DNA of 36,492 bases, from assembly GCA_030428965.1 (NCBI GenBank), contig JAUIEE010000003.1:1-36492 (forward strand). Direction: 5' to 3'. The stretch comes from a bacterium (GTDB lineage Bacteria; Planctomycetota; UBA1135; GCA-002686595). The first letter of the stretch is position 1, and every line of letters begins with the position of its first letter. This document shows, one piece after another, positions 1 to 35,541 of the stretch. The position numbers and the translations under genes are program-made. The notes under the pieces are model-generated. The model did no database searches. It was not told the origin of the DNA and saw only the letters and a list, made by a program, of their open reading frames with translations.

Positions 1-2304
1 CGTGCTCGTCTGGCCGAGGTCCGCGGGGTCCACCCGGTAGCCCAGGGCTCGGTTGTGGACGACGACGGGCTGGTTCTCGGGATCCTGCAGGACGTTCGAG
101 TCGAAGCGACTCGGCATGTCGAACAGACCCGAGTTCGAGTGGATGACGACGCCGGCGTAGGTGTACTCGTCGGGCAGACGCAGGGAGTGGGCGAGCTTGA
201 TCTCGAACTCCTCGTAGAACTCGGCGCTGACCTGTCCCGCCACCGGGGACCACTGGATGCCCTCGATGTCGATGTTGAACTTGCTCTCGTCCGTCGCGAG
301 CCAACCCGCGTCGCAGTAGCGCCACACCGTCTGCAGCTTGCTGCCCAGGGGCGATAGGGGCACGCTGGTCACCGGCACCGTGTTGAAGGGCAGGCTCTGC
401 ATCAGGGCCGGCACCGGGTTGGACTGGTCGATGGGATAGCCCACCCGCGAGGTCCGCCGGGGTTGAATCACGCCCGCGTCCAGGTCCAGGGTCACCTGTC
501 CGCGCCACTCCACGCGACCTTCGCCCGCGTTGCCCTCCTGGTACTCATCCAGGTCGGAGAAGCGCAGCACGACGCTGGCGTTCATCTCCGGGGGCGCCGT
601 CGGGTCGATCGAGAACTCCACCTCGGGGAGCGGGTTCACGATCGGGTTGCCCGCCAGGTCGGTCACTTCCTGATCCAGCGAGCCCACGGCCACGTGGTAG
701 AGCTCGCCGGCACTGGTCGTGTCCCCCTCGTGGGCGAAGGGCAAGAGCGGCTGGAAGTTGAAGACGCGCAGGTCGCCGTCGCGGTCCACGTTTCCCACCA
801 CGGTGTTGACCGCGGAGGGGTCGTCCGCCTGGGGTCCGCGGAAGACGCTGAAGGTCGAGAAGGGACCCAGGGAGCTCGGGTCCATCGGCTCCGTGAAGTT
901 CAGGACCACGCGCGCGTCCGGGTCGACCCCGGTGGCCGGCAGCTCGGCGGCGGGCGGTGAGAAGCTGAGCCAGCAGGCCGCGGGCGCGGTGCCGGAAGGA
1001 TCGTAGGTGTTCTGGAAGCTGCTCGTTCCGAGGAGGATGTTCGGGTTCGAGATGCCCGTATCCGAGACGTAGCGCAGCTTGAGGTCGCGCACCACGTCAT
1101 TCACGGGCACCGAGCCCAGCCGGGTCACCTCGAGGAAGCCTTCGGGCGTGGAGATCACGTCGCCCACCTCGGGTCGGCCCTGGCAGATCGAGCTGAAGCT
1201 CAGGTCGGCGATGAAGTCGAAGCCCGGCGTGCCCGCAGGGTCGTCGACCACGGCGTCGATGGTCACCGGCCAGTCCCCCAGGATCTCGGGGGCGACGTCG
1301 TCGGTCAGGAAGCCGTTGGCCGCATCCTGGGCGTTTCCGGTGCGCAGGGCGCGCACGACCTCGATGGTCTCGGTGGTGAAGTCGACCGGACCGTTGCCGC
1401 TCGTCGCAACCCCCTTGCCGCCCAGGCTCCTGAGGATGGAGAACTGGCCTTCCCCCACGCTGGTGCTCGAAGGGATGCGGATCGAGAGGTTGGGTTGTGC
1501 GGTGGTCGTCAGGCTGGCCGGCAGGCCCAGGAGGTTGGTCTGCAGGGGCGTCGGCGTCTCCTCGGTCTCGGACACGGTCATGTCGATCAAGACGCGCGTC
1601 GCGTGGAAGCCATCGTCGATGTTCGCGCCGTAGTTCCGGTCGAAGACCATGCGAGCCGGGAAGAACTGGCTCGGCGGATAGCCCGTGAGCACCTTGATGT
1701 TGTTGCTCAGGTTGACCTCCGACAGCGGATCGTCCCGGAGCGCGTCGTTGAAGCGCACCACGAGCACGCTGTTGCGGGCCACGAAGGAGAACGGCGGGGC
1801 GGACGTCCCGTTGTCGTTCTTGGGGGCGATGCGCGAGAAGTCGGAGGCGGCCCGCAACAGGAGATCCTCGAAGGTGCCGTTGCCGGCGTCGGGCTCTCCG
1901 TCCGTGCGCCGGATGATCAGCCTCTGGCGCTGGGTGATGGCGTTCGTCTCGAGGATGTAGTCGGACAGGTCCGTGTTGACCTTCTCGTTGATCGCGAAGT
2001 CGGTGAAGAGCGGCTCGGCGTTGACGTCGCCGTTGAGGTCGACGTCGTGGACGTCCACCAGGCGTCCCCAGTACATCTCCTCGATGACGAGGCGGCTCAC
2101 GTCACCGCTTCCGTTGGGGTCGACGAAGAAGGTCGATCCGTCGGGCCTGGAGACCCGCGCTCCGATCGTGCCGGCTTGGACCCCCCCGGAGCCCTGGCCC
2201 AGGTTGCAGCCAGTGGACAGCCCCAGCACGAGGCCGGCCAGGCCGAGTCCGCGCAGGGCGGAACGCCAGGAAAAGGGGGAGGAGATGGGCTGATGCGTGC
2301 TCAT
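1..2304 (-). CDS. Giant Ig-like lipoprotein, paralogue A (3' end outside window)
   Basis: Unrecognised large surface lipoprotein; 768 codons are visible and the frame is still open at base 1, so the C-terminus lies outside. The ATG at 2304-2302 is chosen because it gives a lipoprotein signal: arginine-containing start, hydrophobic stretch, then lipobox LSTGC with Cys33 as the modified residue. Asn follows the Cys, so there is no inner-membrane-retention Asp. Two Ig-like (Big_5/SbsA-type) segments are visible, one around VVRFNDAL and one around LNFTEPMDP. Blocks such as WGRLVDVHDVD, NAITQRQRLII, GNGPVDFTT, WRYCDAGWLATDES and VVHNRALGY recur in the genes at 2452-5564 and 9167-12337, showing that the three are paralogues. 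No catalytic motif is seen. A structural or adhesive outer-surface role is inference only. Confidence 0.85.
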   Translation of the reverse strand, partial: MSTHQPISSPFSWRSALRGLGLAGLVLGLSTGCNLGQGSGGVQAGTIGARVSRPDGSTFFVDPNGSGDVSRLVIEEMYWGRLVDVHDVDLNGDVNAEPLFTDFAINEKVNTDLSDYILETNAITQRQRLIIRRTDGEPDAGNGTFEDLLLRAASDFSRIAPKNDNGTSAPPFSFVARNSVLVVRFNDALRDDPLSEVNLSNNIKVLTGYPPSQFFPARMVFDRNYGANIDDGFHATRVLIDMTVSETEETPTPLQTNLLGLPASLTTTAQPNLSIRIPSSTSVGEGQFSILRSLGGKGVATSGNGPVDFTTETIEVVRALRTGNAQDAANGFLTDDVAPEILGDWPVTIDAVVDDPAGTPGFDFIADLSFSSICQGRPEVGDVISTPEGFLEVTRLGSVPVNDVVRDLKLRYVSDTGISNPNILLGTSSFQNTYDPSGTAPAACWLSFSPPAAELPATGVDPDARVVLNFTEPMDPSSLGPFSTFSVFRGPQADDPSAVNTVVGNVDRDGDLRVFNFQPLLPFAHEGDTTSAGELYHVAVGSLDQEVTDLAGNPIVNPLPEVEFSIDPTAPPEMNASVVLRFSDLDEYQEGNAGEGRVEWRGQVTLDLDAGVIQPRRTSRVGYPIDQSNPVPALMQSLPFNTVPVTSVPLSPLGSKLQTVWRYCDAGWLATDESKFNIDIEGIQWSPVAGQVSAEFYEEFEIKLAHSLRLPDEYTYAGVVIHSNSGLFDMPSRFDSNVLQDPENQPVVVHNRALGYRVDPADLGQTST

Positions 2305-2335
2305 GGCTCTCTAAAGATCGGTACGATCGGTGGAG

Positions 2336-2341
2336 GGTATA
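2336..2341 (-). promoter_or_regulatory. Candidate -10 element upstream of paralogue A
   Basis: The minus strand reads TATACC here, an AT-rich hexamer that stands out in this GC-rich region, about 32 nt upstream of the ATG at 2304. No good -35 hexamer lies 16-18 bp further upstream. This is a weak candidate for a sigma-70-type promoter serving the last gene of the array separately. Confidence 0.3.
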
Positions 2342-2451
2342 GTGGAATCCTAGCGCCCTGGGCCGGGGGGGTCACGCCGAAGCCGGCAGGGGGGCCCTGG
2401 GAGGCCTGGCAGGGGGGGTCGGGAAGAGGTTTCCGGAAGGGGACCTACCCA

Positions 2452-5400
2452 TCACAGCCCCTCGCGATACGCGATTCCCAGGCCGGACAGGGTCAGGCTC
2501 GAACCGGTGTGGACGTTGTTGACGAAGCTGAGTCGCAGCTGGAGGAACGGGGCTCCGTCGAGCTCGTCGACCTCCGTGGACCAGGTGGGGCGATCCTGGA
2601 AGAAGTCGGGGCGAGCTCCCGCGACGTTGCCGTAGGGATCCATCTCCCCGGCATCGAAGAAGCCGGGGGAGGCCACGGGGAACCCCCGTGCTCCCCGGTA
2701 GTCCACCTCGATGCGCGTTCCGGGGGGCCACGCCTCCGGCGGCGGCTCGAACAGAGCCTCCTCGTAGTCCGGCGCGGCGAAGTCCGCTTGGAACCAGATC
2801 GAATGGGCACGGCTGACGCGCACCACCGTGTCGACCGCACCCATGTACAAGGAATTGTCGGCCTGGCGCCGGGTCGGTCGCCCCGGAGGATTCGAGCGCG
2901 GGTTGAAACCCCCGCTCGGCTGCAGCTCCAGGTCCGGATCCTTGGGGACGCGGTTCGAGGCGTCGTCGATGCCGCCGGTGGAGTAGGCGCGGAAGTTCGG
3001 CGTCGCCCTCGAGTTCAAGGCCAGGGAGATGTCCAGGGCGTTCAGCCCCACCCCCTCGTCCGAGGGATAGCAGCGAAACTCCACCAGGAGCGGGAGCCCG
3101 TAGGAGGGCACCTTGCCCGGCTGGGCCAGGGATCCCGCCGCGATGCCCCCGTAGAGGGAGATGGGCGGTTCGACCTCCACGTAGAGGGGCAGGCCGCCGG
3201 AGAACTCCCCGCCCTGGGCCAGGATCGTCGTGTCGCGCCAGGTGTAGGAGCGGTAGGCCGCCCCGGAGCGGTTGAAGGGATACGGCATCAACGGCACCCC
3301 GCCCGGACTGATCTGCAGGTCGGCCGGATCGACGACGTAGCCGAGGCTGGCCGGGTGGACGACCTGTTGCTCGCCAAGGGGGTCGTCCAGGATGTTGCGC
3401 GTGTAGAAGTTGGGCTTGGTGTAGAGCCCCGAACCGGACAGCCCCACCAGGTTCCCGACGAACTCGTCGGGGTTCTGAAGCGAGTGGGCCATTCGGATCT
3501 CGAAGCGTTCGAAGTAGTCGGGGATCGCCTGGCCCCCCACCGGCGCCCAGTACATGCCCTCGATGTCGAGGTTGTAGGAGGACTCGTCGGTGACGAGCCA
3601 GCCGAAGTCGCAGTAGCGCCAGACCATCTGGAGCTTGCTGCCCAGAGGTGACAGGGGGCTCTGAACTCCAAGCGAGAAGGGAAACATGATGCCCGGCACG
3701 GGGTTCTGTCGATCGACGGCGGCCAGCGCGCGCCCCGGGGGCCGCGGTCGCAGCACCCCGTCGGCCACGTCGAGGAAGACCTGGCCGCGCAGGTCGGCGC
3801 TACCGGTCCCGAACTCGGAGGGCTCCTCGAAGCGCAGCACGAAGCCACCGACCGGGTTCGCCGGTGCGCTGGCCTCGAGTCGAAACTCCACCACGGGAGG
3901 CAGATCCGCGGGAGCGTTGCCCGAGAGGTCGGTCAGCCCCCGATCGCCCCCCCCGACGAGCTGCACGTGGTAGAGCTCCGCTTCGTCCCGGTGGGCGAAC
4001 CCGAGCCGGGGCACGAAGGTGAACTCGCGCAGGTCTTCGGACGTCTCGATGGTCCCCACCACCGTGTCCCGCGCGAGCTGCGGCGCGCTGCCCCCTCCCT
4101 TCTCCACCGTCAGGCTCTCGAAGGCCGCGACCCGGGACGGATCCATGGGTTCGTTGAAGCGTACGCTGATCCTGGCCTGGGGATCGACCCCAGAGCCGTC
4201 CCCGTGGTCGGGGCCGGATCGAAACGGAACCAGCAGGCCCCGGGCACCTGGGACTGGGGCCCGTAGAGCGTGAAGAAGCTTCCGAACCCCTGGGCGGAGG
4301 CCGGGGAGGCCAGCGGGTCGGAGGAGAGGGATCGCAGGCGCACCCCCCGCAGGAGGCTGCGTCCCGCGCTCTCGGGCGTGGGGGGCCCGCTGGACTGCTG
4401 CACCTCGAACAGGCGGTCGCCCACGCCGATCACATCGCCAACCCGTGCCGCCTGGGCGCAGGACCGCTGGAAAGCGAGGTCGCACAGGAAGTCGAAGCCA
4501 CTCTCCCCGAAGGGATCCGGGTCGAGGACACGAACCTCGATCGGGAAGTCCCCCACCACCTCGGGCGCGGCGAGATCGATCAGGAAGCCGTTGCCCACGT
4601 CGCCCGCGTTGCCCGCCCGCATGGCGCGCACCACGTCGACGGTCGGCACCCCCAGATCGACCGGACCGTTCGAACTGGAGCTGAGCCCCTTGCCCGTGAC
4701 GCTCCGCAGGAGGTGAAACACGCCCGCCGACGGATCCGTTCGGGTCGCCAAGCGCAACGCGACGTTCGGGGCTTCCACCCCGACCTGGCTTGCGGGAAGG
4801 CCGAGGGCATTGAGCGGCAGGGGCGAGAGGCCGTCCGCGGCCTCGACCTCGGAGATCGTCAGGTCGACGAGGACGCGGGTCGGGTGGAACTCATCGCCCA
4901 GGAGGCCGCCGTGATTGGGATCGAAGAGAACGCGCGCCGTGAAGGGGGTCTGGGGTGCGTAGCCCGTCAGCACCCGCACCGCCTGCTCCAGGCCCCGTCG
5001 CCCCTGCTCTCCGTCGTCCAGGAGGTCGTTGAAACGCAGGACCAGGGTCGCGTTGCGCGGCAGGTAGCTGAATGGGCCCGGGGTCGAAGGTCGGTCCGAC
5101 TTGGGCAGCACGCCGATCAGGCGCTGCGAGACGGCCGCCAGGAGCTCTTCGAAGGTGCCGCGGCCATCGTCCGGAGCGCCCCGGGTGCGCCGGATGACCA
5201 GACGGCTGCGGCGCGTGATCGGGTGCACGTCGAACTGGTAGTCACCCCCGCCGGGGACCGACTCCTGAATCACGAAGTCGCGCAGCACGGGCTGGGGCCG
5301 CAGGGCACCGGATGGATCGACGTCGTGGACGTCCACGAGCTGTCCCCAGGAGACGCTCGAAAGGCCGAGGCGAGATCCCGTTCCGCCGCGGTGAGGATCG

Positions 5401-5564
5401 GCCAGGTAGAAGCCGCCGCCCGCAGGCTTGGCCTGAAGGGACCCGACCTGGAAATCGGCGGCCGCAGCTCCGCCTCCGCCTCCACAGGCCCCCAAGGCCC
5501 AGGCGAGCCCGAGGGCAACCGAGGCTCGCCACCGAGGGGAGCTTGGCCGAGAAGGGGACACCAT
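2452..5564 (-). pseudogene. Giant Ig-like lipoprotein, paralogue B, interrupted by a frameshift
   Basis: Second member of the large lipoprotein family. The start is set at the ATG 5564-5562, which gives a short signal ending in lipobox ALGAC (Cys27) and a glycine-rich linker; the frame is open further upstream but that part looks non-coding. The reading frame from 5564 stops at 4110, while the rest of the family homology (from VDPQARISVRFNEPMDP onward) continues in another frame down to the TGA at 2454-2452. The switch falls in a CCCC run at 4188-4191 (GGGG on the coding strand). One extra G there would restore a protein of about 1037 residues, matching the 1056 residues of paralogue C. Both halves align with A and C throughout. 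It may be a recent pseudogene, a programmed frameshift or a sequencing error; the sequence alone cannot decide. Confidence 0.8.
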
Positions 5565-5753
5565 GGGAGTCCAGCTTAAGGCACGTCCGAGGACCTGTCG
5601 TCGGCCCGAGGCCGGGCAACGGAAACGCGGAACGAGAAAGACTGGGTACGGGGACCTGGACTCCCCAGGACGGGATGCACACGCGCAACCGTCCGCAGCC
5701 AGGCCAGGGGGTACCGACGTGTACATCTACCTGTCCGGGCCAAGCCGGGGTGA

Positions 5754-5779
5754 GCGCTCCTCTCCGGGGAAAGGAGCGC
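5754..5779 (-). terminator. Hairpin after the glycine-rich lipoprotein gene
   Basis: Arms GCGCTCCT (5754-5761) and AGGAGCGC (5772-5779) form a perfect 8-bp stem with a 10-nt loop, starting 10 nt past the stop codon at 5790. No T-run follows in the direction of transcription, so it may be a weak or factor-assisted terminator or an RNA-stability element. Confidence 0.4.
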
Positions 5780-5789
5780 CCCCGCGGGC

Positions 5790-8700
5790 TCAGAACGAGA
5801 AGGGGACGCGCAGGAAGTCCAGGGTGGTCGCCTCCGTCTGGGCCGAGAGCGACGTACCGAGGTTGAATTCGACCTCGAAGCGGAAGAACTTCACCGCCCC
5901 TGCGGGCTGGGCGTTGAACTCGGAGATGTCCGCCGTGGCCGGGACCAGGATGTTGGCCTCGTTCGGCTGCCCCTGGGCGTTCGCCCCCGTGGCCTCGAAC
6001 AGGATGCGCACGAAGCCGCCGGTCGGGATGCTGTCCAGGGCCCCACCGGTGACCACGCGGAAGTAGCGCGGGATGATGGAGTACAGAACCGTCTCGCCGC
6101 CGACACCACCGATGAAGTCGTTGAGCGTGCCGCCGAACGGGTCCACGCTGACGGCCAGAAGGTCGTCTACTTCGTCGTAGGAGCCGCCCGTGATCACGTA
6201 GTCCTGGCTATCGCCCCCCGACATCGTCTCGAGGCGCAGGGTGTAGTTGCGCAGGAGCGCCGGGGTGCGCAGGTACACGTCGTTGGAGAGGCGTCCGGCT
6301 CCCGGGTCTCCCGGGTCGGTGATCAGAGGATCCAGAGACGTCCCCTCGATCAACAGACGGGTGGCATCTCCCACGGAGACGCTGACCGTCATCGTGCCGA
6401 CCTCTTCCGGTCCGAGGATCGGGGCCAGCTCGATCGCATCACCACCGGCATCGACCAGAATCTTGCCCGCATCGGGACCTGCCATCGTGTCGGTTCCTGC
6501 AAAGGCGAAGTTCACCAGCTCCGTCGAGCCGTCCGGGGCCTGATCGGCACCGCCGAGCGAGATCCAGCGCGAACGCGCCTTGGAGGAGGTGCTGAAGAGC
6601 GGGACCATGGGGAGCGCCGGCGGCCCGGTGATCGCTCCCACAGGATCGACGTCGGTTTCAATGTCCATGGGGACGCGGATGCTGGCCGTATCCATGGAAT
6701 CGATCGGGGCCAGCGGATCGGGCACGTGCAGCTGAATGATGCCCGGGCCTCCGATGCCGCCGATGCTGGCCAGGTTTGCGTTGTCGATGGGGTCCGCGGG
6801 AGCACGAGGATCCCCGAGGCCCCCGTTGCCGCCGCGGGCGTCGAGGTAGATGTGGTTGGCATCGGCCTCGGTGATGGTGCCGCCGTCGGTGAAGTCGATC
6901 TGCTGGGCCGACTCCAGGACGATGTGGCCGCCCGAGCCTCCCCCACCGTTACCTCCGATGGAGTTCGTGAAGAAGACGTGCTCGCCGTTCGCGCCGGTGC
7001 CTCCCCTGGCGGCGATGCGCCCCATGGGTCCGAAGGTGATCGGGCCGAGGCTGCGGATGTTCACACCGCCGCCACCGCCGCCACCGCCGCCGCCCTTCTC
7101 GTCCGAGGCGGGGCCCCAGGCAGGCGGGGGAAAGAGCTGCGTGAGGGCATCCCCGCCGCCGCCGCCGCCGGAACCAGCCAGGATGCGGTCCAGCTCGCCG
7201 CGCACGATGATGGGCGGATCCGGGTCGTTCGTGACCGCCTGGATGCCGAAGAAGTCGTTGCCACCTTCCGCCGCCCGGACCCCCGGGCGCATGTCCGTGA
7301 ACGGAAGCGGTCCCTTGCTGCCGCCTTCGGCCGGGACGTTGAGGGACTGGAACGCTCCGGTGCCGTTGCGCGCCCCGTTGCCGTCCTCACCGGCGAAGAC
7401 CCGCTCGATGTCCATGCCGTCGGGGGAGAGCCGTACCTGGTCCGGCCCGAAGCGGCCGCCGCCGCCGCCGCCGGGGCGACGCATGCCGCCATCGACCGTG
7501 TCGTTCGGGTAGTAGTTCGATTCACCGCCCTCGCCGCCGAGCCCGGTGACCTGAAAGGCACCGAAACCGGTGTCGCCACGCGGCGTCGAGTTCGTCAGCA
7601 CGCTGCTCGCGTCGCCGCCGTCTCCGCCTCCGCAGGCCCCCGCACCTCCGACCTCGAGGATGTTGCCCGAATCCAGCGACCCCACGTCCTTGGCGGCGAA
7701 GCCGCTGACATCCAGGAGGCCGCGGATCTCCACGCTGCGGGAAGCGTTGATCGTCAGGATGTTCGGCCCCTCGGCCTTGAACACGCCGCCTTCCTCGATG
7801 ATGAAGTCGCGCACGTTCAAGATGCCGTTGACCGCGTTCTGCTGGCGCACCCCGAAGCCGCCGGGGCCACCGGAGACGATCGTGCTGAGGGTATCGAAGG
7901 CCAGGAACTGGCCGTCCCGGATCACGACGTCGAAGTCTCCGTTCGGTCCGCCGTCCCCTTCGAACTGGAAACCGGCCGCCAGGCGACCTCCGCCCCAGTC
8001 CGCCTGGGCCGTAGGGAAGAGCGCGTCGGGGTCCTGGAAGGACTCCGGGTCATCGCCCCCCACCGAGAAACTCTCGAGCAGCTCGTCGGCCAGGGAGTCC
8101 GGGGGGGTGAGATCGGCAAAGACCTGGGTGCTCGTCGGCACCATGGCGAACCCCTCGATCGGAGCCAGCACGGCATCCTGCTGGGCCAGGTCCTCGAAGC
8201 TGTTGTCGACCACCGCCCTCAGGGAGCTGGCCGGGGGCAAGACGCCCAGGGCTTCGAGCCGAACCGTGGCGCCCGTTTCCGTGCAGTTGCGCACGAGCGA
8301 GACGCGCGTCTCGACCGGTCGCCACACGCCGTTTCCGTCCTGGAACTCCAGCCTCAGTCGATCCTGGCTGATGTTCGACGCGGCGGGACTCACCGGCTGG
8401 TTGAACTCGACCACGATGGCGACGCGGCTGTTCGTATCGCTGTAGAGGTTGAGGGGAGCTGCGAAGGTGGGATCCTCCAGGGAGCTGCCCCCCGAATCGA
8501 GCTCGAAGTAGATGCGGTTCGAGTCGTCCCCGCCCAGCTCGATGTAGGTCGCGGAGAGCTCGCTGGAACCGACCTCGCGAATGACCGGTACCGGAGGACC
8601 GCTGACCGTGTCCAGGAAGGCCGAGGCCGGATCGATCGACACGGGCGTCACGATGGTCCGAACCTGGGACACGTCGAGCGGCTCACCGCGCATGGAGCGG

Positions 8701-9140
8701 ATGGTGTTCAGGGCTCCCGAGTTTTGCCCGAGGATGCGCACCTGGTACTGGACCGAACCCGGCTGGAGACCGGCGTCGGACAGGTCCTCACGGGTCGGGC
8801 AGGTGGGCTGAAAAACGATCGTGCGTCGATCGATCTCCGGGATCCCGTCGTTGTTGAGGTCAACCGACTTGTAGGAGAACGTCCCCGAGGCCGTGGCGCC
8901 GCTCGCGGTGCGGATGCTGATCGTGTTCAGGCTGACCGAGCTGAAGTCCACCTCCTCGCTGAAGGAGAACTCCATGGTCCGGTTCACGCGCCACACGGTC
9001 CCGTTGTTCACGGTCGTGGTCGTCAGCTGAAAGCCACTGACGCCGCTCCCTCCGGTGGTCGAGGAGGAAGAGTTGCGGGTGCAGCCAACCAGGGCCACAC
9101 CTGCGCAAGCGACGAGGGGAAGTAGGAATCGACGGGTCAT
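5790..9140 (-). CDS. Giant glycine-rich lipoprotein D with N-terminal Ig-like domain
   Basis: Unrecognised 1116-residue lipoprotein. The ATG at 9140 begins a clear lipoprotein signal with lipobox ALVGC (Cys20), followed by a Ser/Thr/Gly linker. Residues about 30-150 resemble a Big_5-type Ig-like domain (MEFSFSEEVDFSSVSLNTI). The middle has short strands such as LTINASRSVEIRGLLDVSG separated by glycine-rich turns (GGAGACGGGDGGD and long Gly runs), suggesting a repetitive beta-solenoid. The C-terminus (FRFEVEFNLGTSLSA...FLRVPFSF) resembles the ends of paralogues B and C. The gene starts 26 bp after the stop of paralogue C, so the two are probably co-transcribed. No enzyme motif is seen. A role as a surface-anchored or matrix protein is inference. 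Confidence 0.85.
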   Translation of the reverse strand: MTRRFLLPLVACAGVALVGCTRNSSSSTTGGSGVSGFQLTTTTVNNGTVWRVNRTMEFSFSEEVDFSSVSLNTISIRTASGATASGTFSYKSVDLNNDGIPEIDRRTIVFQPTCPTREDLSDAGLQPGSVQYQVRILGQNSGALNTIRSMRGEPLDVSQVRTIVTPVSIDPASAFLDTVSGPPVPVIREVGSSELSATYIELGGDDSNRIYFELDSGGSSLEDPTFAAPLNLYSDTNSRVAIVVEFNQPVSPAASNISQDRLRLEFQDGNGVWRPVETRVSLVRNCTETGATVRLEALGVLPPASSLRAVVDNSFEDLAQQDAVLAPIEGFAMVPTSTQVFADLTPPDSLADELLESFSVGGDDPESFQDPDALFPTAQADWGGGRLAAGFQFEGDGGPNGDFDVVIRDGQFLAFDTLSTIVSGGPGGFGVRQQNAVNGILNVRDFIIEEGGVFKAEGPNILTINASRSVEIRGLLDVSGFAAKDVGSLDSGNILEVGGAGACGGGDGGDASSVLTNSTPRGDTGFGAFQVTGLGGEGGESNYYPNDTVDGGMRRPGGGGGGRFGPDQVRLSPDGMDIERVFAGEDGNGARNGTGAFQSLNVPAEGGSKGPLPFTDMRPGVRAAEGGNDFFGIQAVTNDPDPPIIVRGELDRILAGSGGGGGGDALTQLFPPPAWGPASDEKGGGGGGGGGGVNIRSLGPITFGPMGRIAARGGTGANGEHVFFTNSIGGNGGGGSGGHIVLESAQQIDFTDGGTITEADANHIYLDARGGNGGLGDPRAPADPIDNANLASIGGIGGPGIIQLHVPDPLAPIDSMDTASIRVPMDIETDVDPVGAITGPPALPMVPLFSTSSKARSRWISLGGADQAPDGSTELVNFAFAGTDTMAGPDAGKILVDAGGDAIELAPILGPEEVGTMTVSVSVGDATRLLIEGTSLDPLITDPGDPGAGRLSNDVYLRTPALLRNYTLRLETMSGGDSQDYVITGGSYDEVDDLLAVSVDPFGGTLNDFIGGVGGETVLYSIIPRYFRVVTGGALDSIPTGGFVRILFEATGANAQGQPNEANILVPATADISEFNAQPAGAVKFFRFEVEFNLGTSLSAQTEATTLDFLRVPFSF

Positions 9141-9166
9141 GATTTGGGAGGGTGGGCAGGGGAGCT

Positions 9167-12100
9167 CTAGAGGGACTGGAAGGGGATCCCGATCGCGGAG
9201 AGCTCGGGGTTGAGCCCGGTGTCGAGGTTGTTGACGAAGGTCACGCGCACCTGAATGTAGGGCGCACCGGAGACGTCTTCGATGTCGTCGGTCCAGGTCC
9301 GAACGTCGTTGAGGAAGGTGATGCTGTTGGACTCGTCCCAGGGGTTGCCGTAGGGGTCGATGCCACTCGCGTCGAAGGGCTCCTCCGCGCCCAGAACGAT
9401 CGCGGAGGCCCCGCGGTAATCCAACACCAGCTGAGTGCCGTTGGGCTGCTCGCTAGCGTCCGGCTCGACCACAGGCTCCTTGTACTCGGGATTCGCGGAC
9501 TGGGTGTTCAGGAAGATCGTGTGCACCCGGCTCACGCGGGTCACGATGTCGATCTGCCCGATGTAGAAGGTGTTGTCGAGCTTGCGCCGCGTGGGCCGGC
9601 CCGGCGGATTCGATCCCGGGTTGAAGCCACCGCGCGGTCTGCGGTGGAAGTCGTCGTCGGGATTGACGAAGACCTGGTTGAAGTTCTCGTCCAGGCCCCC
9701 CTGGGAGAAGGCCCGGAAGTTCGGCTCGGCCGAGGAGTTGATCGCCAGGGAGACGTCGAAACCGTTGAGGCCGACGCCCTCGTCCGAGGGATAGCAGCGC
9801 ACTTCCATCAGGAGCGGCAAGCCGATGGTCGGCACGCGGTTGCGGCCGTAGAGCTCTCCGGCCATCAAGCCGGTATCCGGACCCCCATACAGGTTCAGGG
9901 GGGCCAGGACCTCGACCTCGAGGGGGATTCCCGCACCGAACATCGCGCCGGTCCCCGTGGCCGAGGTATCCCGCCAGGTGTAGGTCATGTACGGCCCACC
10001 CGAGCGGTTGAACGGGTAGGGCATCATCTGGGTTCCCGTGGGGGACACGAAGATGTCACCGGGACGGATCGTGTAGCCGAGGGCGCGGTTGTGGACCACC
10101 TTCGGCCCGGCCACAGGGTCGTCCAGGGGGAAGGTGTCGAAGTTCGCCCGGTTGTCCTCGAGACCGGAGGTGCGGTGCAAGGGCAGCTGGTACATATCGA
10201 CGTACTCGTCCGGCAGCCAGCGGCTGTGGGCCAGCATGATCTCGAACTCTTCGTAGCTGTCGGCCGACACGCGCCCCTGGAAGGGCGCCCAGTTCAGGCC
10301 TTCGACGTCCACGTTGTACTTGGACTCGTCGGTGACCAGCCAGCCCATGTCGCAGTAGCGCCACAGGGTCGTCATGCGCGCGCCGAGGGGCGTCAGCGGA
10401 GTCTGGATGGGCAGGGCGAAAGGGAACATCTTGCCCGGCACCGGGTTCGTCCGGTCGTGGGGCACCTGTTCGTGCGTCACGGGGCGCGGGCGGATCAGCC
10501 CCCGATCGAAGTCGTAGAAGAACTGACCGCGGATATCGAGGTTGCCCTGGAGCTGGTCAGGGTCGTCGACGTCGAACTCGTTGATATCGTCGAAGCGCAA
10601 GACGATGCCGCCCCCGCGCGCCTCAGGGGCGCTGGGATCGAGCTGGAACTCGACGAAGGGGATCGAATCGCGCAGCTCGTTGCCGGCCAGGTCCGTGGGG
10701 CCGCGTTCCCCGTCGACCAGTCGGATGTTGAAGGTCTCCGCCTGGTTGGACTGGTGCTCGAACTCGAGCGAGGGGCGGTAGGAGTAGTTCTTGAGGTTGG
10801 CGGAACGCTGCACCTTGGAGACGACGATGTTCGTCGCGTCGGCTTCGTCGAAGCGGCTGCCCTTGACGACGAGGAACGAGTCGAAGGGGCGAACCGAGAG
10901 CGGGTCCATCGGCTCGTTGAAGCGCACCACGATCTGCGAGTCGGGATCGACCGCCGTGGACGGGGGATTGGCGGGCTCGGGCAAGAACGTGAACCAGCAG
11001 GCGGCGTCCACGGCCAGACCGGGATCGTAGGTCGTCTGGAAGGTTCCGTTCCCCAGCAGCGTGCTGGCCACGACCGTGTCTTCTCCCAGGACCCGGACCC
11101 GCACGTCGGAGACTTGACCGGAACCGTTCGGCGCCCCCGCGATCCGGGTCACCTCCAGCAACTCGTCGGCCATCTCTAGGATGTCCCCTTGCCGGGGCTG
11201 CTCGCGACAGACGTTGTTGAAGCGTATCCCGACGATGAAATCGAAACCCGCTGTACCCGACGGGTCCGGTACGGCCGAGGTCAGAGCGATGGGCCATCCG
11301 CTCACGACCTGGGGAGCCTCGAGGTCGAGCAGGAAGCCGTTGTTCGCATCGGTGGGATTGCCCGAGCGCATGCCGCGCACGATCGGGACCGTGGGGCTGG
11401 TGAAGTCCACGGGACCATTGCCCTGGGTCGCCAGCGGCTTGCCGCCGATGTTCTTCAGGAGGGAGAACTGGCCCGTGCCCGCATCGATGCGGGTGGGGAT
11501 TCGGATCGAGACGTTCGGCTGGCCGGTGGAGGTCAGGCTCGCGGGAAGCCCCAGGGAGTTGACGCCCACGGGGATGATCAGGTCCGGCAACTCGGCGTCG
11601 GAGACCGTGAGGTCCACGATGACGCGCGTCGAGTGGAACGCTCCGTCCACCAGGGTGCCGTGGTTGGGGTCGAAGAAGATGCGCGAGCTGAACGCATTCG
11701 TCGGCGGGTAGCCGGTGAGGACGCGCACGCTGTCGGCCAGGCTGGTGGCCTCGGACGGCCGATCGTCGAGGGCGTCGTTGAAGCGCAGCACGACGGCACA
11801 GTTGCGCGAGAGATACGAGACCGGCTGGGTGGCCGTCGGAGCGTCCGAGGAAGGAGAAATGGGCGGCAGGTTGGCAGCCGCCGCGCTCAGGAGCGAGGCG
11901 AAGGTCGACCCGCCGGTCGGCGTCGCCGGAGGTGTCGCCGGCTGCTGGATGATCAAGCGGGTCCGCTGCGTGATCGCGTTGGTCTCTAGAACGTAGTCCG
12001 CCCCGTCGGACTGCAGGTTCTCGGAGATCACGAAGTCGCGGAAGACCGGCACCGTCCCAGGCTCCCCGGTGGCCGGGTCGATGTCGTAGACGTCCACGAG

Positions 12101-12337
12101 CCGCCCCCAGAACATCTGGGACAGACGCAGACGGGAGACCGCCCCTCCCTCGTTGGGATCGACGAAGAAGGATCCTCCGCCGGGCTTGGCCAAGAGCTCA
12201 CCGACGGGACCGATCTGGGTGCCGCCTCCACCGCCACTCCCTCCACAAGCCGCCAGGCCCAGGAAAAGACTCGAGACGAGGGCGAACAGCCCGAATCGGG
12301 CGGAACGCGGAGCGCTGGGATTCGAAGTGAACTGCAT
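9167..12337 (-). CDS. Giant Ig-like lipoprotein, paralogue C (intact)
   Basis: Complete member of the three-gene family, 1056 residues, and the best reference copy. The ATG at 12337 is chosen because it starts directly before the signal peptide and lipobox GLAAC (Cys31), then a Gly-rich linker; the frame extends upstream to 12562 but without signal-like sequence. Ig-like (Big_5-type) modules are seen around VVLRFNDALDD and IVVRFNEPMDP. Further conserved blocks are WGRLVDVYDID, FFDPNHGTLVDG, WRYCDMGWLVTDES, MPYPFNRSGGPY, CYPSDEGVGLN and NPPGRPTRR. The protein ends in YIQVRVTFVNNLDTG followed by GIPFQSL. The conserved Trp, Cys and Tyr blocks suggest a fixed fold in the C-terminal half. It is the first gene of the lipoprotein block and is probably co-transcribed with the next gene, 26 bp downstream. 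Function unknown. Confidence 0.88.
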   Translation of the reverse strand: MQFTSNPSAPRSARFGLFALVSSLFLGLAACGGSGGGGGTQIGPVGELLAKPGGGSFFVDPNEGGAVSRLRLSQMFWGRLVDVYDIDPATGEPGTVPVFRDFVISENLQSDGADYVLETNAITQRTRLIIQQPATPPATPTGGSTFASLLSAAAANLPPISPSSDAPTATQPVSYLSRNCAVVLRFNDALDDRPSEATSLADSVRVLTGYPPTNAFSSRIFFDPNHGTLVDGAFHSTRVIVDLTVSDAELPDLIIPVGVNSLGLPASLTSTGQPNVSIRIPTRIDAGTGQFSLLKNIGGKPLATQGNGPVDFTSPTVPIVRGMRSGNPTDANNGFLLDLEAPQVVSGWPIALTSAVPDPSGTAGFDFIVGIRFNNVCREQPRQGDILEMADELLEVTRIAGAPNGSGQVSDVRVRVLGEDTVVASTLLGNGTFQTTYDPGLAVDAACWFTFLPEPANPPSTAVDPDSQIVVRFNEPMDPLSVRPFDSFLVVKGSRFDEADATNIVVSKVQRSANLKNYSYRPSLEFEHQSNQAETFNIRLVDGERGPTDLAGNELRDSIPFVEFQLDPSAPEARGGGIVLRFDDINEFDVDDPDQLQGNLDIRGQFFYDFDRGLIRPRPVTHEQVPHDRTNPVPGKMFPFALPIQTPLTPLGARMTTLWRYCDMGWLVTDESKYNVDVEGLNWAPFQGRVSADSYEEFEIMLAHSRWLPDEYVDMYQLPLHRTSGLEDNRANFDTFPLDDPVAGPKVVHNRALGYTIRPGDIFVSPTGTQMMPYPFNRSGGPYMTYTWRDTSATGTGAMFGAGIPLEVEVLAPLNLYGGPDTGLMAGELYGRNRVPTIGLPLLMEVRCYPSDEGVGLNGFDVSLAINSSAEPNFRAFSQGGLDENFNQVFVNPDDDFHRRPRGGFNPGSNPPGRPTRRKLDNTFYIGQIDIVTRVSRVHTIFLNTQSANPEYKEPVVEPDASEQPNGTQLVLDYRGASAIVLGAEEPFDASGIDPYGNPWDESNSITFLNDVRTWTDDIEDVSGAPYIQVRVTFVNNLDTGLNPELSAIGIPFQSL

Positions 12338-12781: not shown

Positions 12782-14113
12782 TTAGCGCGTCGCGGCCGAG
12801 AAGCCCAGGGCCGTCGCTTCCGCCTCGTCGCGAAAGAAAATCAGGTGATCGGGCCGGATCCTTCGGGCCGAAGCCGAATCCCGGTCGTGGAAATGCCGGG
12901 TCGTCGAGCAGCCCACGAGCCCGATCGGCATCTCCTGGGAGCAGTAGCCGCAGACCGCCCGCAGCGGGTCGCGGGAGGTCAGGCGAAAGGCCAGCTGCAG
13001 GTGGCGCTCCTCGGTGTTCGACACGCAGGTCGGGTTGGGGCACGGGTTGGTGCCGGCCGCCACGGGCCACAGCCGGGCACCGGCGGCAGGCGGCGAGGAC
13101 TTCAGCTCGATCTTGCCCAGGAGGAAGCCCAGGATCGCCATGCGGATGGGAACGCCTCGGGCCGCCTGCTTGAAGTAGATGCTGCGGGGATCGTCGTCGA
13201 GCTCCGAGCTGATCTCGTCGCGGCGCGGCAGAGGGTGCATCACGACCGCCTCCCGCAGGGAGCCGGCCGACAGCGAATTCTGGCCCAGTTTCATGTAGGA
13301 CCGTGACAGATCGTCGTCCTTCCCATGGCGCTCCGTCTGGGGCCGCGTCATGTAGACCGCATCCACCCGCCCCACCCGCAAGCCGCGTGAATCGGTGAAC
13401 AGGGACAGCTGGTGCGGCTTCTGGGGCGTCATGTAGACGACGTCGCTCTCCTCGGCCAGGTCCCCCAGCTCGGAGGCATCCGCGCGCACGGGCTCGGCCC
13501 CGTACTCCTCCCGCAGGCGCCGCACGACGTAGGGCGGCAGCTCGAAGCCACGGTGCGGCACGCAGACGATGTTCGCACCGAAGCGAGCCAGGGCGTAGAC
13601 GAAGGAGTGGATCGTCCGGCTGTAGAGCAGGTCTCCGGCCAGGACCACGTCCAGACCCTCGATGTGGCCCTTCTCGATCCAGAGCGTGTACAGGTCGCAC
13701 AGGGTCTGGGTCGGGTGTTCGTGGCTGCCATCCCCGGCGTTGATCACCGGGACGTTGGAGTACTGGGCGGCCAGACGCGCCGCCCCCTCGCTCGAATGGC
13801 GCAGCACGATCAGGTCGGAGTAGGACCCGCTCACGACGCGCACGGTGTCCGCGAGGGACTCGCCCTTGACCGCGCTCGAGCTGCGCATCTCCGCGGCGGT
13901 GAGCACCCCGCCCCCCAGGCGCTGCATGGCGGACTCGAAGGACAGGCGGGTCCGGGTCGAGGGCTCGTAGAAGAGGCTGGCGGAGATCAGTCCGCGGCAG
14001 AGGTCGGCGTGGGCGCGCAGATCGACCGCGAAGGCCTTGGCCTGCTCGAAGAGCTCCTGGATCTCGGCGACGCTCAGGTCGTCGACGGAAACGAGGTGTC
14101 GAATGCCCTTCAC
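12782..14113 (-). CDS. pyrB: Aspartate carbamoyltransferase with fused PyrI-type zinc domain
   Basis: Catalyses carbamoyl phosphate plus aspartate to carbamoyl-aspartate, the committed step of pyrimidine synthesis. Catalytic-chain motifs are present: STRTR (carbamoyl-phosphate loop), KGESLADT (80s loop), HPTQTLCD, GDLLYSRTIHS, YMTRPQ and HPLPRRDE. The GTG at 14113 gives 443 residues and places the start just before the family domain, with AGG nine bases upstream; a TTG at 14191 would add 26 residues and is possible. After the normal end (about residue 335) a segment with four cysteines (358, 363, 388, 391; spacing 5-25-3) matches the zinc domain of the regulatory subunit PyrI, beginning CPNPTC and ending CGYC. 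The N-terminal nucleotide-binding domain of PyrI is absent. About 50 further residues follow that I do not recognise. It is the last gene after coaX and the MnmE-like gene. Confidence 0.93.
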   Translation of the reverse strand: MKGIRHLVSVDDLSVAEIQELFEQAKAFAVDLRAHADLCRGLISASLFYEPSTRTRLSFESAMQRLGGGVLTAAEMRSSSAVKGESLADTVRVVSGSYSDLIVLRHSSEGAARLAAQYSNVPVINAGDGSHEHPTQTLCDLYTLWIEKGHIEGLDVVLAGDLLYSRTIHSFVYALARFGANIVCVPHRGFELPPYVVRRLREEYGAEPVRADASELGDLAEESDVVYMTPQKPHQLSLFTDSRGLRVGRVDAVYMTRPQTERHGKDDDLSRSYMKLGQNSLSAGSLREAVVMHPLPRRDEISSELDDDPRSIYFKQAARGVPIRMAILGFLLGKIELKSSPPAAGARLWPVAAGTNPCPNPTCVSNTEERHLQLAFRLTSRDPLRAVCGYCSQEMPIGLVGCSTTRHFHDRDSASARRIRPDHLIFFRDEAEATALGFSAATR

Positions 14114-14215
14114 GGCCGCCGACCTGGGTCCAGGCCGGGGAGCGGACTCCTCCGATCCACCTTCGATGCGTTCCTCATCCAGTCTTGCCAAAAGTACGGG
14201 ATGACCCGGTTGGGA

Positions 14216-16096: not shown

Positions 16097-17125
16097 TCAG
16101 TCCTGGGGCGAGCGGAACAAACGGGTGAACTCGCGGCCCTTGTTCTCGATCACGACCACCCATTCGTCGGTCGTGTCCGCCGCCTTCTTCACGTAGGCGA
16201 TGGCACCGTTGACGCTGGTCACCTTCTCGCCGTTGATGCTCTTGATCACGTCGCCGCTCTGCAGGCCGTGGGCCTCGGGCAGGGAGCCGCCGGCCACGTA
16301 GGTCACGGCGATCCCGGTCACCTGTCCGGTGCGCGGGTCGCGGTGCTTCTTGTAGCGCACGTCCTGGGAGAGGATGCGCGAGTAGTCCTGCTCGAGGGTC
16401 TGGACCGTTTCGGTCCCCACCTGCCAGACGTTCTTGCCGACCAGCTGCGTCTGGGCAGGCCGCCAGGTGGAAGCGCCCGCGCTCCTCTGAATCAGCTGCT
16501 GGCGTTCGGGAATGATCGCCCCATCGGTGCCGACCTTGACGATCTGGGCCCGGCCGCTCGGAAACTCGACCGGGGCGAGGATCTCGGGCTCGCGGTCGTC
16601 CCCTTCGAACACGAAGTGCACCCCTCGGCTCGAGATGCGGTCCACGCGGGCGTAGGCGTGGGGCTCGGGCAGGGTCTCCCCCACCCGCAGGATGTTGTCC
16701 TCGGGATCCTTGCGCTGCAGGGTCCGCTGCAAGAGCACGTTGTCGGTGTACTTGACGTAGGCCAGGCTGCCGGCCGAGTCGTCCGTGTCCACCCGCACCA
16801 CGAGCACCTTGAGGAGCTCGGCGACCTTCTTCTTGGGGGTCTCGACGACCTTGGGCTCTTCCTTCACCTCCCGGATCTTGGGAGCCTCTTTCCCCGTCCA
16901 GTCCATGTTGTGGAACACGGCCTGGACGAGCTTGTAGTCGACCACGTTGTCCTTGGGCGGCTCGGGGGTCTCGATGCTGTCGAGCACCTCCCGCTGGGCC
17001 TCGTTGCTGACCCCCAGCTCCAGCTCGCCGCGGTTCTTCAGGAACTCGGCCACGAACCAGGCCAGGTAGCCGCCCAGGGCCAGGGAGCCCACCCAGGTCA
17101 GGAGCTTGATGCGTTGAATGTTCAT
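16097..17125 (-). CDS. GspC-like inner-membrane protein with PDZ domain
   Basis: Probable envelope assembly protein resembling GspC of type II secretion. The ATG at 17125 is favoured over the upstream in-frame ATG at 17143 because GGGGAGG lies nine bases before it; this gives 342 residues. A single membrane helix spans about residues 8-27. A charged Lys/Glu/Pro linker follows, then a beta-rich region (about 105-185) that resembles a GspC homology region, and a C-terminal PDZ domain (about 255-335) with GLQSGDVIKSINGEKV. It lies 95 bp after a PilT-type ATPase gene and just before coaX. In known systems the homology region contacts the secretin; contact with the secretin encoded at 23529 is inference. 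It could alternatively be a generic PDZ protein. Confidence 0.75.
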   Translation of the reverse strand: MNIQRIKLLTWVGSLALGGYLAWFVAEFLKNRGELELGVSNEAQREVLDSIETPEPPKDNVVDYKLVQAVFHNMDWTGKEAPKIREVKEEPKVVETPKKKVAELLKVLVVRVDTDDSAGSLAYVKYTDNVLLQRTLQRKDPEDNILRVGETLPEPHAYARVDRISSRGVHFVFEGDDREPEILAPVEFPSGRAQIVKVGTDGAIIPERQQLIQRSAGASTWRPAQTQLVGKNVWQVGTETVQTLEQDYSRILSQDVRYKKHRDPRTGQVTGIAVTYVAGGSLPEAHGLQSGDVIKSINGEKVTSVNGAIAYVKKAADTTDEWVVVIENKGREFTRLFRSPQD

Positions 17126-17220
17126 AGGGCGTCGCCTCCCCATGCTACCCGGGCCGGGCCCGGGAGCCCAAAGCCGAGGTCTGGGGCGAAGCTATCCCCT
17201 GGGACGCCCGGCCTCTGGAA

Positions 17221-18714
17221 CTATTCCCCGCCGGCCAGGCGAAGTCGTCCGCCCCCGCTGCCCGGCTCGGCCAAACCGGTCTTGCCGTCGCCCAGACGGG
17301 CGCTCTTGAAGCCCCGCAGGGCCAGGAGGAGCTCCTCGGGGCGGTCGCTGGCGGAGAGCGCCACCTCGAGCTCGATCAGGTCCTGCTGGACCAGGCGCCG
17401 CAGGGAGTTGTTGAAGGACACGAGCCCCTCGTCGGTCCCGACGTCGATGATGCGGGAGAGCTCCCCGACCTTGCCCTCGTAGAGCAGCTCTCGCACCCGG
17501 GGGGTGCTCAGGAGCAGCTCGACCGCGGGCACCATGCCCTGGCCCGACTTGCGCGGCAGGAGGCGCAGGGACATGACCCCGGCCAGGTTCTCCGCCAGAC
17601 GCTGGCGCACCTGCTGGTGCCGCTCGGCCCGGAAGAAGGACAGGATGCGGTCCACGGTCTGGGGGGCATTGACCGTGTGGAGGGTGCTCATGACCAGGTG
17701 GCCGGTCTCGGTCGCGTCCAGGGCAGCGCCCACCGTTTCGGCGTCGCGCATCTCCCCGATGAGCAGCACGTCCGGGCTCTGGCGCAGGGCGTGGCGCAGC
17801 CCGTCGGTGAAGTTGTCGCAGTCGGTCCCGATCTCGCGCTGGCTGATCACGCAGCGCACTTCCTGGAACAGGATCTCGACCGGATCCTCGAGCGTGACCA
17901 CGTGCCGCTCGGCGTGGGTGTTCATGTGCTGGATCAGGGCCGCCAGCGCCGTGGACTTTCCGGATCCGGCCACACCGGTCACGAGCATCAGCCCGCGCTT
18001 GCGCAGGGCGAGTCGCTCCAGCTGGGTGGTGGGAAGGTTCAGGGCCGACAGCATGGGCGCGTCGCCCGAGACCCGCCGCAGGACCACGGCGGGCTCGCCC
18101 ATCTGCTTGTAGGCGTTGAGGCGGAAGCGACCGAGGCCGTCCAGCCGCAGGGCCGTATCCACCGACCCCTTCGCGGCCCAGACCTTCATGCGGTCCTCCC
18201 CGACGATGCCGTCGAGCACCTCGAGCAGCGGGCCGGCGCCGGGAACGCGACCGGGCAAGAAGTGGATGCGCCCGTCGATGCGACAGGACGGCTTGCCGCC
18301 GGCCCTCAGGATCAGGTCGCTGGCCTTGAGTCGCACCATTTCCGCGAGCCATGCCTCGAGCTTGTGGCGCGGTGAGCTGGAAGCCCCGGCGGATTCCCGG
18401 TGGCCCGGGTCGGGACCGGTGGGGAGCTGGGGCCCGGGGGTCGGAGGCGGCGGCGCCTGGTGCAGGGATGCCGGAGCGACGGGCGCTTCGGAGGGCGCCG
18501 GGGCCATCGGTCCGGGCGAGAGCGGGCCCGAGGGCGGCAGGGCCCCCTGCAGAGGAGACGGCGGTGGCTGAGGCGTCGGAGCAGGCGGGTTCCCGGGCAG
18601 GGCGCTCTCGACGCCGGGCAGATCGTCCAGGGAGAAGCTCTCTTGGAGCGATCCGTCTCCGAACCCCATGGGGTCGAGGGGGTCGGGCTGGGACATGGGA
18701 TCGGATTGGTGCAC
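17221..18714 (-). CDS. pilT: PilT/PilU-family type IV pilus retraction ATPase
   Basis: Hexameric motor ATPase of the PilT/PilU group, expected to drive pilus retraction at the inner membrane. Motifs: Walker A GVAGSGKST (247-255; the usual GPTGSGKST has Pro-Thr where this has Val-Ala), Asp box EDPVEI, Walker B LLIGEMRDAET and His box GHLVMSTLHT. The GTG at 18714 has GAGG six bases upstream and gives 497 residues; an ATG at 18696 lacks a ribosome site. Residues 1-115 are a Pro/Ala-rich, probably disordered extension absent from ordinary PilT (about 345-380 residues). The C-terminal region (SFNNSLRRLVQ, SASDRPEEL) is typical of the family. It is encoded away from pilMNO, with the GspC-like gene next. 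Confidence 0.92.
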   Translation of the reverse strand: MHQSDPMSQPDPLDPMGFGDGSLQESFSLDDLPGVESALPGNPPAPTPQPPPSPLQGALPPSGPLSPGPMAPAPSEAPVAPASLHQAPPPPTPGPQLPTGPDPGHRESAGASSSPRHKLEAWLAEMVRLKASDLILRAGGKPSCRIDGRIHFLPGRVPGAGPLLEVLDGIVGEDRMKVWAAKGSVDTALRLDGLGRFRLNAYKQMGEPAVVLRRVSGDAPMLSALNLPTTQLERLALRKRGLMLVTGVAGSGKSTALAALIQHMNTHAERHVVTLEDPVEILFQEVRCVISQREIGTDCDNFTDGLRHALRQSPDVLLIGEMRDAETVGAALDATETGHLVMSTLHTVNAPQTVDRILSFFRAERHQQVRQRLAENLAGVMSLRLLPRKSGQGMVPAVELLLSTPRVRELLYEGKVGELSRIIDVGTDEGLVSFNNSLRRLVQQDLIELEVALSASDRPEELLLALRGFKSARLGDGKTGLAEPGSGGGRLRLAGGE

Positions 18715-25487: not shown

Positions 25488-26947
25488 TTTCGCGCGGAGT
25501 GTTGGAGACTTTTTTGCTTGGCGGGGGAGTAAGTGCTGTTCAGCCCGCCCTCGATGGGACGAGCCAGGAGGAGCCCACGGAAATCGAATTCGATCTGGTC
25601 GTTGCGGATGTTCCGCACGATCAGCTCGTCGCCGATGAGCTCTCCTTCTGAAACGGGGAACCCGTTGATCAAGGCAACGGGGCGGCGGTCCTCGTAGATT
25701 GCGATACCACCAATGCTCAGCTCGATCTCCTCGAAGGAGAGGACGGTCTTGGCGAGCACTTCGAGCTCGCGCAGGGCCTGAACGAGCGGTCGCTTGAACT
25801 CGTCTCGCTCCGCGATGGCAAGTCGCGGTTCGAGGGCCTTGTAGGCATCGAGAGCAAGCTCGTATTCATGGAAGTCGATGTGCCGCGCCATGCTCTGGGC
25901 CGCCTCGCGAAGGGCAGCCACGCTGGGCCCAGGCCGACTTCCGTCACCATCGGTCATCTTCGAGCGCAGGTCGTCGGCGACGGCGAGCACGTACTTGTCG
26001 AAGCGACGGCTGGCGGGGATGAAGGAGAGCTGTCCGGACGACTCGACGCGACGCGCCTCCTCGTCCAGGATGGCCAGCGCCTCCTCCAGGGCGGCGCGCG
26101 CCTTCATTTCGGCGATCAGGTTCTCGGCCTGCCCCACCTGCTCCCAGAGCTCGGCTGCGGCCTCGGCCTTCTCGACCATCTCGTCGACGATGGCGATCTG
26201 CTGCTCGATCGAGATGAAGTCGCCCTCGGGGTTGCGGGGCACCCTCGGATCGACCCAGGGGTCCCTTCGGCCGCGAGCGCCACGGTACTGGTAGCTCGGA
26301 ACCTGAAGCTCGGCCGTGCGCTTGGAGATCTCGCTGATCAGGAGGTCACGCTTGCGCTCGTACTGATCGATCTTGACCGTCTCGCTGCCGGCCTTGGGGG
26401 CGTACACGTACGTCTCCAGGTCCAGCGTGATGCGGTGGCGAGGGATCTCGGTCGGATTCTTCTGGCGCCGGGCAGCCGACAGCTTGAATGCGGTGATGGC
26501 CATGAAGCGCGAGTGGCTCTCCACCCGGTCCATGAAGGAGAGCAGCTGGAAGATGTCGGCTTCCATGTTCAGGGTGTAGCCGACGCGCTGGAACTCCTTG
26601 TTGTCCTTGTCCGCCCGGGAAGCCTTCTGCAGCTTCATGCCGGAGATCGAGACGTTCGACTCTTCCTCGAACTGCTGCAGGGTGCGAACGAAGTTGTTCA
26701 CGTCCTCCTGGTCCGAGAGGATTTCCTTGATCGTGGTGTCGGTCTCACGCTGGATGATGACCTCTTTGACGAGGTCCGGCGTGGTCTTGATCAGCTCACG
26801 GGCGTCGGCGATCTGGCCGCGCACGCGCTCTGCCTCGGCCCGACGCTCCTTGATCGTCTCCTTCTGGAAGTAGATCAGGGCGCCGATTCCGCCGGCGATC
26901 AGGACGCTGAGCGCGCCGAGAATGATCCATTTCTTCTTCTCGTTCAC
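25484..26947 (-). CDS. pilO: PilO-like pilus assembly protein, possibly fused to a PilP-like domain
   Basis: Inner-membrane alignment protein of the type IV pilus. It has 487 residues where PilO usually has about 200. The GTG at 26947 overlaps the pilN stop by four bases (GTGA). A membrane helix lies at 7-27, then a coiled coil to about 95, then a PilO-like ferredoxin fold (NVSISGMKL, QLLSFMDRVESHSRFMAI; about 98-185). After RDPW (228-231), a motif also found in PilP, comes a long helical, Ala/Glu-rich section (245-400) and a small beta-rich end (405-458, ALINGFPVSEGELIG) that resembles the PilP/GspC homology region. As no separate pilP gene precedes the secretin, a PilO-PilP fusion is a reasonable inference, not proof. 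Confidence 0.82.
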   Translation of the reverse strand: MNEKKKWIILGALSVLIAGGIGALIYFQKETIKERRAEAERVRGQIADARELIKTTPDLVKEVIIQRETDTTIKEILSDQEDVNNFVRTLQQFEEESNVSISGMKLQKASRADKDNKEFQRVGYTLNMEADIFQLLSFMDRVESHSRFMAITAFKLSAARRQKNPTEIPRHRITLDLETYVYAPKAGSETVKIDQYERKRDLLISEISKRTAELQVPSYQYRGARGRRDPWVDPRVPRNPEGDFISIEQQIAIVDEMVEKAEAAAELWEQVGQAENLIAEMKARAALEEALAILDEEARRVESSGQLSFIPASRRFDKYVLAVADDLRSKMTDGDGSRPGPSVAALREAAQSMARHIDFHEYELALDAYKALEPRLAIAERDEFKRPLVQALRELEVLAKTVLSFEEIELSIGGIAIYEDRRPVALINGFPVSEGELIGDELIVRNIRNDQIEFDFRGLLLARPIEGGLNSTYSPAKQKSLQHSARK

Positions 26948-28505: not shown

Positions 28506-28529
28506 GTGTGCCTCGCGGGGAATGCGTAG

Positions 28530-28548
28530 GAGGAGGTGGGGCCTCCTC
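28530..28548 (-). promoter_or_regulatory. Hairpin in the pilM leader containing a Shine-Dalgarno-like sequence
   Basis: The minus strand reads GAGGAGG, CCCCA loop, CCTCCTC: a 7-bp stem 25-43 nt upstream of the pilM GTG. One arm is a strong ribosome-site-like sequence locked in the stem, while the probable working GAGG lies nearer the start. A control role is speculative. Confidence 0.35.
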
Positions 28549-28652
28549 GGGTACGATCGTTCGCAAGGCCTTTCGGCGAGGACCCGCCAGGAGCTGGAGG
28601 GTTTTGAGCCCCCCGGAGCCAAGAAAAGAGGCCCGTAGCCACTCGCCGGGCC

Positions 28653-35345: not shown

Positions 35346-35436
<91 letters not shown>

Positions 35437-35452
35437 TTGTTCGTACGGCAGG

Positions 35453-35541
<89 letters not shown>

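Follow-up and report, generated by a model that had tools for sequence, protein, structure and literature searches.

A family of giant lipoproteins in a conserved type IV pilus gene cluster of Planctomycetota: a candidate core component of the cell envelope

The main question raised by this locus is what a set of very large, related lipoproteins with no recognized function does in a planctomycete, and whether they are a variable surface or matrix component, as the original prediction had it. The window (the whole stretch of 36,492 nucleotides that was analyzed) corresponds to contig C77 in a metagenome-assembled genome from the Planctomycetota, which is 84.5% complete and comprises 643 contigs. 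The lipoprotein genes on its minus strand are transcribed in the order paralogue C (12337-9167), a Gly-rich lipoprotein (9140-5790), paralogue B (5564-2452), and paralogue A (2304-1). Paralogue C is an intact protein of 1056 aa with lipobox Cys31, a Big_5 Ig-like module at about residues 460-520, and an uncharacterized C-terminal half (residues 572-1056). With C as the query, A covers residues 5-763 with 46% identity (E 5e-218), and the two pieces of B, which are in different frames, match residues 6-458 (N-terminal part, 4203-5564; 49% identity, E 8e-172) and residues 453-1054 (C-terminal part, 2452-4218; 45% identity, E 3e-112). The proposal of three paralogues is borne out in that the homology is far beyond chance and C is intact, but A is truncated by the contig end and B is frame-broken. 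Similarly, the copies are side by side, as expected of a tandem array, but C is separated from B by the Gly-rich lipoprotein, which has a Big_5 module and an LVGC lipobox and is the constant downstream partner of the giant lipoprotein family. The open reading frames of the N-terminal (to 4110) and C-terminal (2452-4485) parts of B overlap in different frames, with a break near 4200. There are short C/G runs (CCCC, GGGG) at 4140-4320, and the break is either an assembly error or a true frameshift in this single assembly.

A search of the genome with C gave five matching stretches, which amount to three paralogues in all. The fifth stretch lies right at the end of contig C209 (23002-23859; L007:3002-3859) and encodes 285 aa, in frame and open to the contig edge, with 43% identity to C residues 786-1051. 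Contigs C77 and C209 have no sequence overlap. Because A ends at C residue 763, this piece takes up at residue 786, and the genes behind it (a Big_5 lipoprotein, pilD, ompA-like, fusA-like, pilT, pilB, pilC, and a prepilin) are those found downstream in relatives, the sequences indicate that it is very probably the C-terminus of A. Further copies had been suspected to the left of base 1; the genome has only these three, and what lies beyond A is the Big_5 lipoprotein, pilD, and more pilus genes. Conserved blocks WGRLVDV, FNDAL, and WRYCDxGWLxTDES are present in A, B, and C (with variants WGQLVDV and FNDLL in B), and PYPFNRSG, PSDEGVGLN, and PPGRPTRR are found in B and C. B and C have all six of the predicted blocks; the last three are absent from A in the window, and could not be there because A runs off base 1. 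The corresponding blocks in the C209 piece are PSNSAIGLN and PPGLATPS.

That these proteins are lipoproteins is supported across the family. The lipobox Cys is present in 99% of aligned rows, is preceded by A, G, or S in 75 of 76, and is usually followed by G, S, or N at +2; in one distant member (L113), no lipobox Cys was seen close to the predicted signal peptide. Judged by the rule known from E. coli, the lipobox and +2 residues of this family suggest that the proteins are sorted to the outer membrane. Two other cysteines, Cys 377 and Cys 447, are conserved in 99-100% of aligned rows and may form a disulfide.

There is one Big_5 (PF13205) module per protein, at about residues 457-564 in A, which accounts for roughly one tenth of the sequence. 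The giant lipoproteins are like other Big_5 proteins in this module and differ from them elsewhere. Relative to the Pfam gathering score of 23.6, A (26.5 bits) and the C-terminal part of B (23.8) are above and C (16.7) is below. A second Ig-like region (residues 178-306) can be aligned to the Big_5 portion of the Gly-rich protein. Over the remaining sequence, which includes the C-terminal half and a large part of the N-terminal half, Pfam gave no match beyond Big_5, and NCBIfam, PHROGs, and PDB sequences gave nothing useful. No full-length match to a known enzyme or transporter family, which would have spoken against the earlier view, was found by profile or fold search.

We modeled C with AlphaFold2, using an alignment of 78 members of the family. 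The model is all-beta, with an Ig-like and jelly-roll-like body, a mean pLDDT of 92.6 and pTM of 0.86 (94.6 and 0.93 for the C-terminal half alone). Foldseek found no global match in the PDB for the C-terminal half, and for C it found local beta-sandwich likeness only (S-layer SbsC, cadherin, CopC), with a query-normalized TM of about 0.2 or less. Phage baseplate, Eph, and PNGase jelly-roll proteins were rejected as relatives of the C-terminal half (best PDB TM ≤0.19), as were viral proteins (best viral-library match 0.30). The S-layer proteins SbsC and Sap, which are among the best PDB fold matches, are likewise rod-like strings of beta domains, but their TM is about 0.1, there is no sequence likeness, and the giant lipoproteins have a lipid anchor and no S-layer anchoring region. 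A confident model with no PDB counterpart, together with the lack of a full-length match in Pfam, NCBIfam, PHROGs, or PDB, agrees with the prediction of a specific uncharacterized C-terminal domain. Its described richness in aromatic residues and Cys holds for W (1.4%, compared to 0.5% in the N-terminal half) and Y (3.7%, compared to 1.2%), but not for Cys (0.4% compared to 0.7%).

These local fold similarities, some of them Ig-like and others jelly-roll/lectin-like, could indicate glycan-binding lipoproteins that capture polysaccharides, SusD-like in role, with different copies specific for different glycans. Tandem duplication and the 40-70% identity between copies would also fit such a role. 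We consider it quite improbable, given that all of the local fold matches are weak, the giant lipoproteins matched no carbohydrate-binding family, and no TonB receptor or carbohydrate-active gene was recognized at the conserved site described below.

The family is nearly universal in the class to which this genome belongs. All 61 genomes in a first search for relatives had a match (the window's own genome included), as did 151 of 154 genomes in the whole class and all 53 of those of high quality (≥90% complete, ≤5% contaminated). The three without a match are 65-84% complete. Those relatives that have a name either belong to the Planctomycetota or are unclassified metagenome-assembled genomes; in addition there are the isolates Pla86 and Poly30 (the latter is Saltatorellus ferox), both of which fall in the window's own family. 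Using a broader profile on a phylum sample of 343 genomes, we detected diverged relatives in many further families. In the open literature, excluding subscription journals and preprints, we found no description of the giant lipoproteins or of the planctomycete cluster.

The genomic context, which was absent from the original prediction, is a type IV pilus gene cluster in which the copies lie together with Gly-rich and Big_5 lipoproteins. The order of the site is rne-obg-pilT-PDZ protein-coaX-pyrB-[lipoprotein(s)-Gly-rich lipoprotein-Big_5 lipoprotein]-pilD-ompA-fusA-pilT-pilB-pilC-pilA. Tens of loci within the class retain it, and so do, within the stretches examined, families f2, f4, f5, f6, f7, f8, and f47 (the last outside the class), with alterations in f5 and f47. 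Distant planctomycete families have the same super-cluster, with shorter lipoprotein relatives (about 700-900 aa) in the same slot. The window has, on the minus strand, an aspartate carbamoyltransferase-like gene (pyrB, named from sequence; 12782-14191), which is the usual upstream neighbor (40 of 76 loci), a membrane-anchored PDZ protein of GspC-like architecture (16097-17143), a PilT-like ATPase (T2SSE; 17221-18714), a secretin of the PilQ/GspD type (23529-25487), a PilO/GspM-type protein (T2SSM_b; 25484-26947), a PilN-like protein assigned by position and size, with no Pfam hit (26944-27585), and PilM (27582-28622).

The PDZ protein is the most constant neighbor across the phylum. Its PDZ domain was found in 25 of 25 members scanned, and there is a hydrophobic segment near the N-terminus in the members that were read; the likeness to GspC is one of architecture and position only, with no Pfam family besides PDZ. 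Among 43 sampled genomes outside the class for which both a lipoprotein-like and a PDZ-protein match were listed, some of the former resting on one module alone, the two are ≤10 kb apart in 29, where 0.2 would be expected. The PDZ protein occurs at the site across the phylum and is duplicated in some genomes (L083:3943-4971, 5013-6011). The Gly-rich partner accompanies the family even at a second, dispersed site in Poly30 (L095/L132). Gly-rich Big_5 lipoproteins have long GGGG segments; one is inside the array and two are further along the C209 cluster (L006:3749-6733, 6780-9905).

Because the family is near-universal in the class and has a fixed place in the pilus cluster, it appears to be a core part of the envelope rather than a variable surface decoration, and it is almost certainly important to the envelope. 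The explanation that we favor, tentatively and at a little under an even chance, is that these are large lipoproteins of the outer-membrane type that make up one orthologous family and act as a scaffold or coat tied to the neighboring machine through the PDZ protein. Once lipidated and sorted to the outer membrane, each giant lipoprotein would form a rigid rod, and with the Gly-rich and Big_5 lipoproteins as partners such rods would build an outer-membrane or cell-surface scaffold or an adhesive coat. The type IV filament or type II secretion-like machine encoded around the site would assemble, export, or position this structure, with the PDZ protein as the likely contact between the machine and the giant lipoproteins. 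PulA and SslE are surface lipoproteins that are type II secretion substrates. The giant lipoproteins resemble them in size, in lipidation, and in having genes for a GspC-like PDZ protein and a prepilin peptidase close by, but no sequence relation was found, and export of the giant lipoproteins by the neighboring machine is inferred.

Gene order alone does not prove a link to the pilus, because the block also contains rne, obg, coaX, pyrB, and fusA. The giant lipoproteins could instead be a general coat or scaffold with no functional tie to the pilus, their site simply reflecting a barely rearranged block of the chromosome. Conservation of those housekeeping genes in the same order is consistent with this, as are dispersed copies located away from pilus genes. 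So is the DISCRIMINATING case, family f5 (26 genomes, many of 1.8-3 Mb), in which the site reads obg-PDZ-coaX-pyrB-lipoprotein-lipoprotein-Gly-rich-Big_5-pilD-ompA-fusA-tatD, with a gene with a pilin-like N-terminus before tatD in some. PilM, PilN, PilO, PilQ, both PilT, PilB, and PilC are missing from this site and the remaining genes are in order. Canonical PilM is missing genome-wide in f5: matches have E values of 1e-3 to 1e-12 (one partial match, 5e-20), compared to typically <1e-40 elsewhere. The f47 site likewise has no pilus genes. The small f5 genomes keep the giant lipoprotein in duplicate, and we rejected the idea that it is an obligate component of the type IV pilus, since the lipoproteins stayed when the site lost its pilus genes.

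The same families also provide evidence against an independent coat. Besides housekeeping genes, the PDZ protein and pilD stay with the lipoproteins in both f5 and f47 (in f5 also ompA and the gene with the pilin-like N-terminus). Secretins and T2SSE ATPases persist elsewhere in f5 genomes, so that a partner machine may remain. In addition, there are about ten type IV filament genes in the same block. Overall, we regard a coat independent of the pilus as somewhat unlikely.

Loss of the pilus engine from the f5 site also bears on the possibility that the giant lipoproteins functionally replace PilY1, acting at the cell surface or pilus tip as an adhesin and as a factor that primes the type IV pilus. 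Their genes are embedded in the pilus cluster, and a search of 154 class genomes gave no match to PilY1 (PF05567), nor was there any Pfam match to it in A, B, or C; the control genomes were silent too, so that absence of PilY1 from the class is suggested but not proven. Retention of the lipoproteins where PilM, PilT, PilB, and PilC were lost from the site, and a lipid anchor that is ill-suited to a protein of the pilus tip, make this replacement very improbable. Known accessory proteins of the type IV pilus are also encoded in pilus clusters, and those of the pilotin/Tgl type are lipoproteins as well. Pilotins have 100-250 residues; the giant lipoproteins differ from them in having 1000 residues and in being retained at the site after loss of the engine genes.

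The family that lost the engine from the site separates the pilus part from a second function of the same cluster. We think it possible, though rather unlikely, that the Planctomycetota have an undescribed outer-membrane module of the type IV filament machine, composed of the GspC-like PDZ protein in the inner membrane, one to several giant lipoproteins, and their two partners, which the machine would display or hold attached; it would be ancestral to the phylum and kept even without the engine. A protein of about 1000 residues that is present in practically every member of a deep bacterial class, at a position common across the phylum, is thus missing from the family databases, and the structure of its C-terminal half resembles none that has been solved. 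The Saltatorellus clade has been described as shape-shifting (PMC11481906, PMC11032199). If the module exists, shape change and crawling in that clade could depend on it as an outer coat or adhesive system. Because cultured shape-shifting isolates (Poly30, Pla86) are in the class, the role of the giant lipoproteins is directly testable.

The number of copies per genome ranges from 1 to about 9. This is unlike a fixed part of a machine and counts against the machine-linked scaffold that we favor. In the tree, many extra copies group by genome (the three of Pla86, the three of CPC51, and others), which indicates that tandem and dispersed copies are largely due to repeated lineage-specific duplications; B and C pair with 89% local support. 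The C/Gly-rich/B/A layout recurs in a relative, OFTM43 (L027), whose copies are not one-to-one with the window's. For the most part, dispersed copies lack pilus genes in their vicinity, and the largest clusters of their shared neighbors are shadow ORFs over the lipoprotein genes themselves and are uninformative.

Such repeated duplication, up to about nine copies, would be expected if this were a variable family of the surface or matrix, expanding so as to alter how the cell appears from outside. However, one copy is universal and syntenic, and identity in 88-residue windows is fairly even in both within-genome and between-species pairs, with no hypervariable block and with the C-terminal half on average the better conserved part. 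There was no pattern of antigenic variation between copies or close relatives, and a variable surface antigen family was rejected. We therefore abandoned the "variable" part of the prediction, and consider a variable surface or matrix family highly improbable. In the favored scaffold, the extra copies would vary dosage or binding specificity.

Several other features were observed in and around the cluster. The pilus super-cluster regularly includes an elongation factor G-like gene (L006:17084-19087). In Thermotoga, the PyrI zinc domain is fused to PyrB. The pyrB-like ORF of the window has 469 codons and a C-terminal extension with two Cys pairs (CPNPTC...CGYC), reminiscent of such a fused domain. 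Two adjoining tRNA-Ser genes (GGA, CGA) are located at 35346-35541 of the window.
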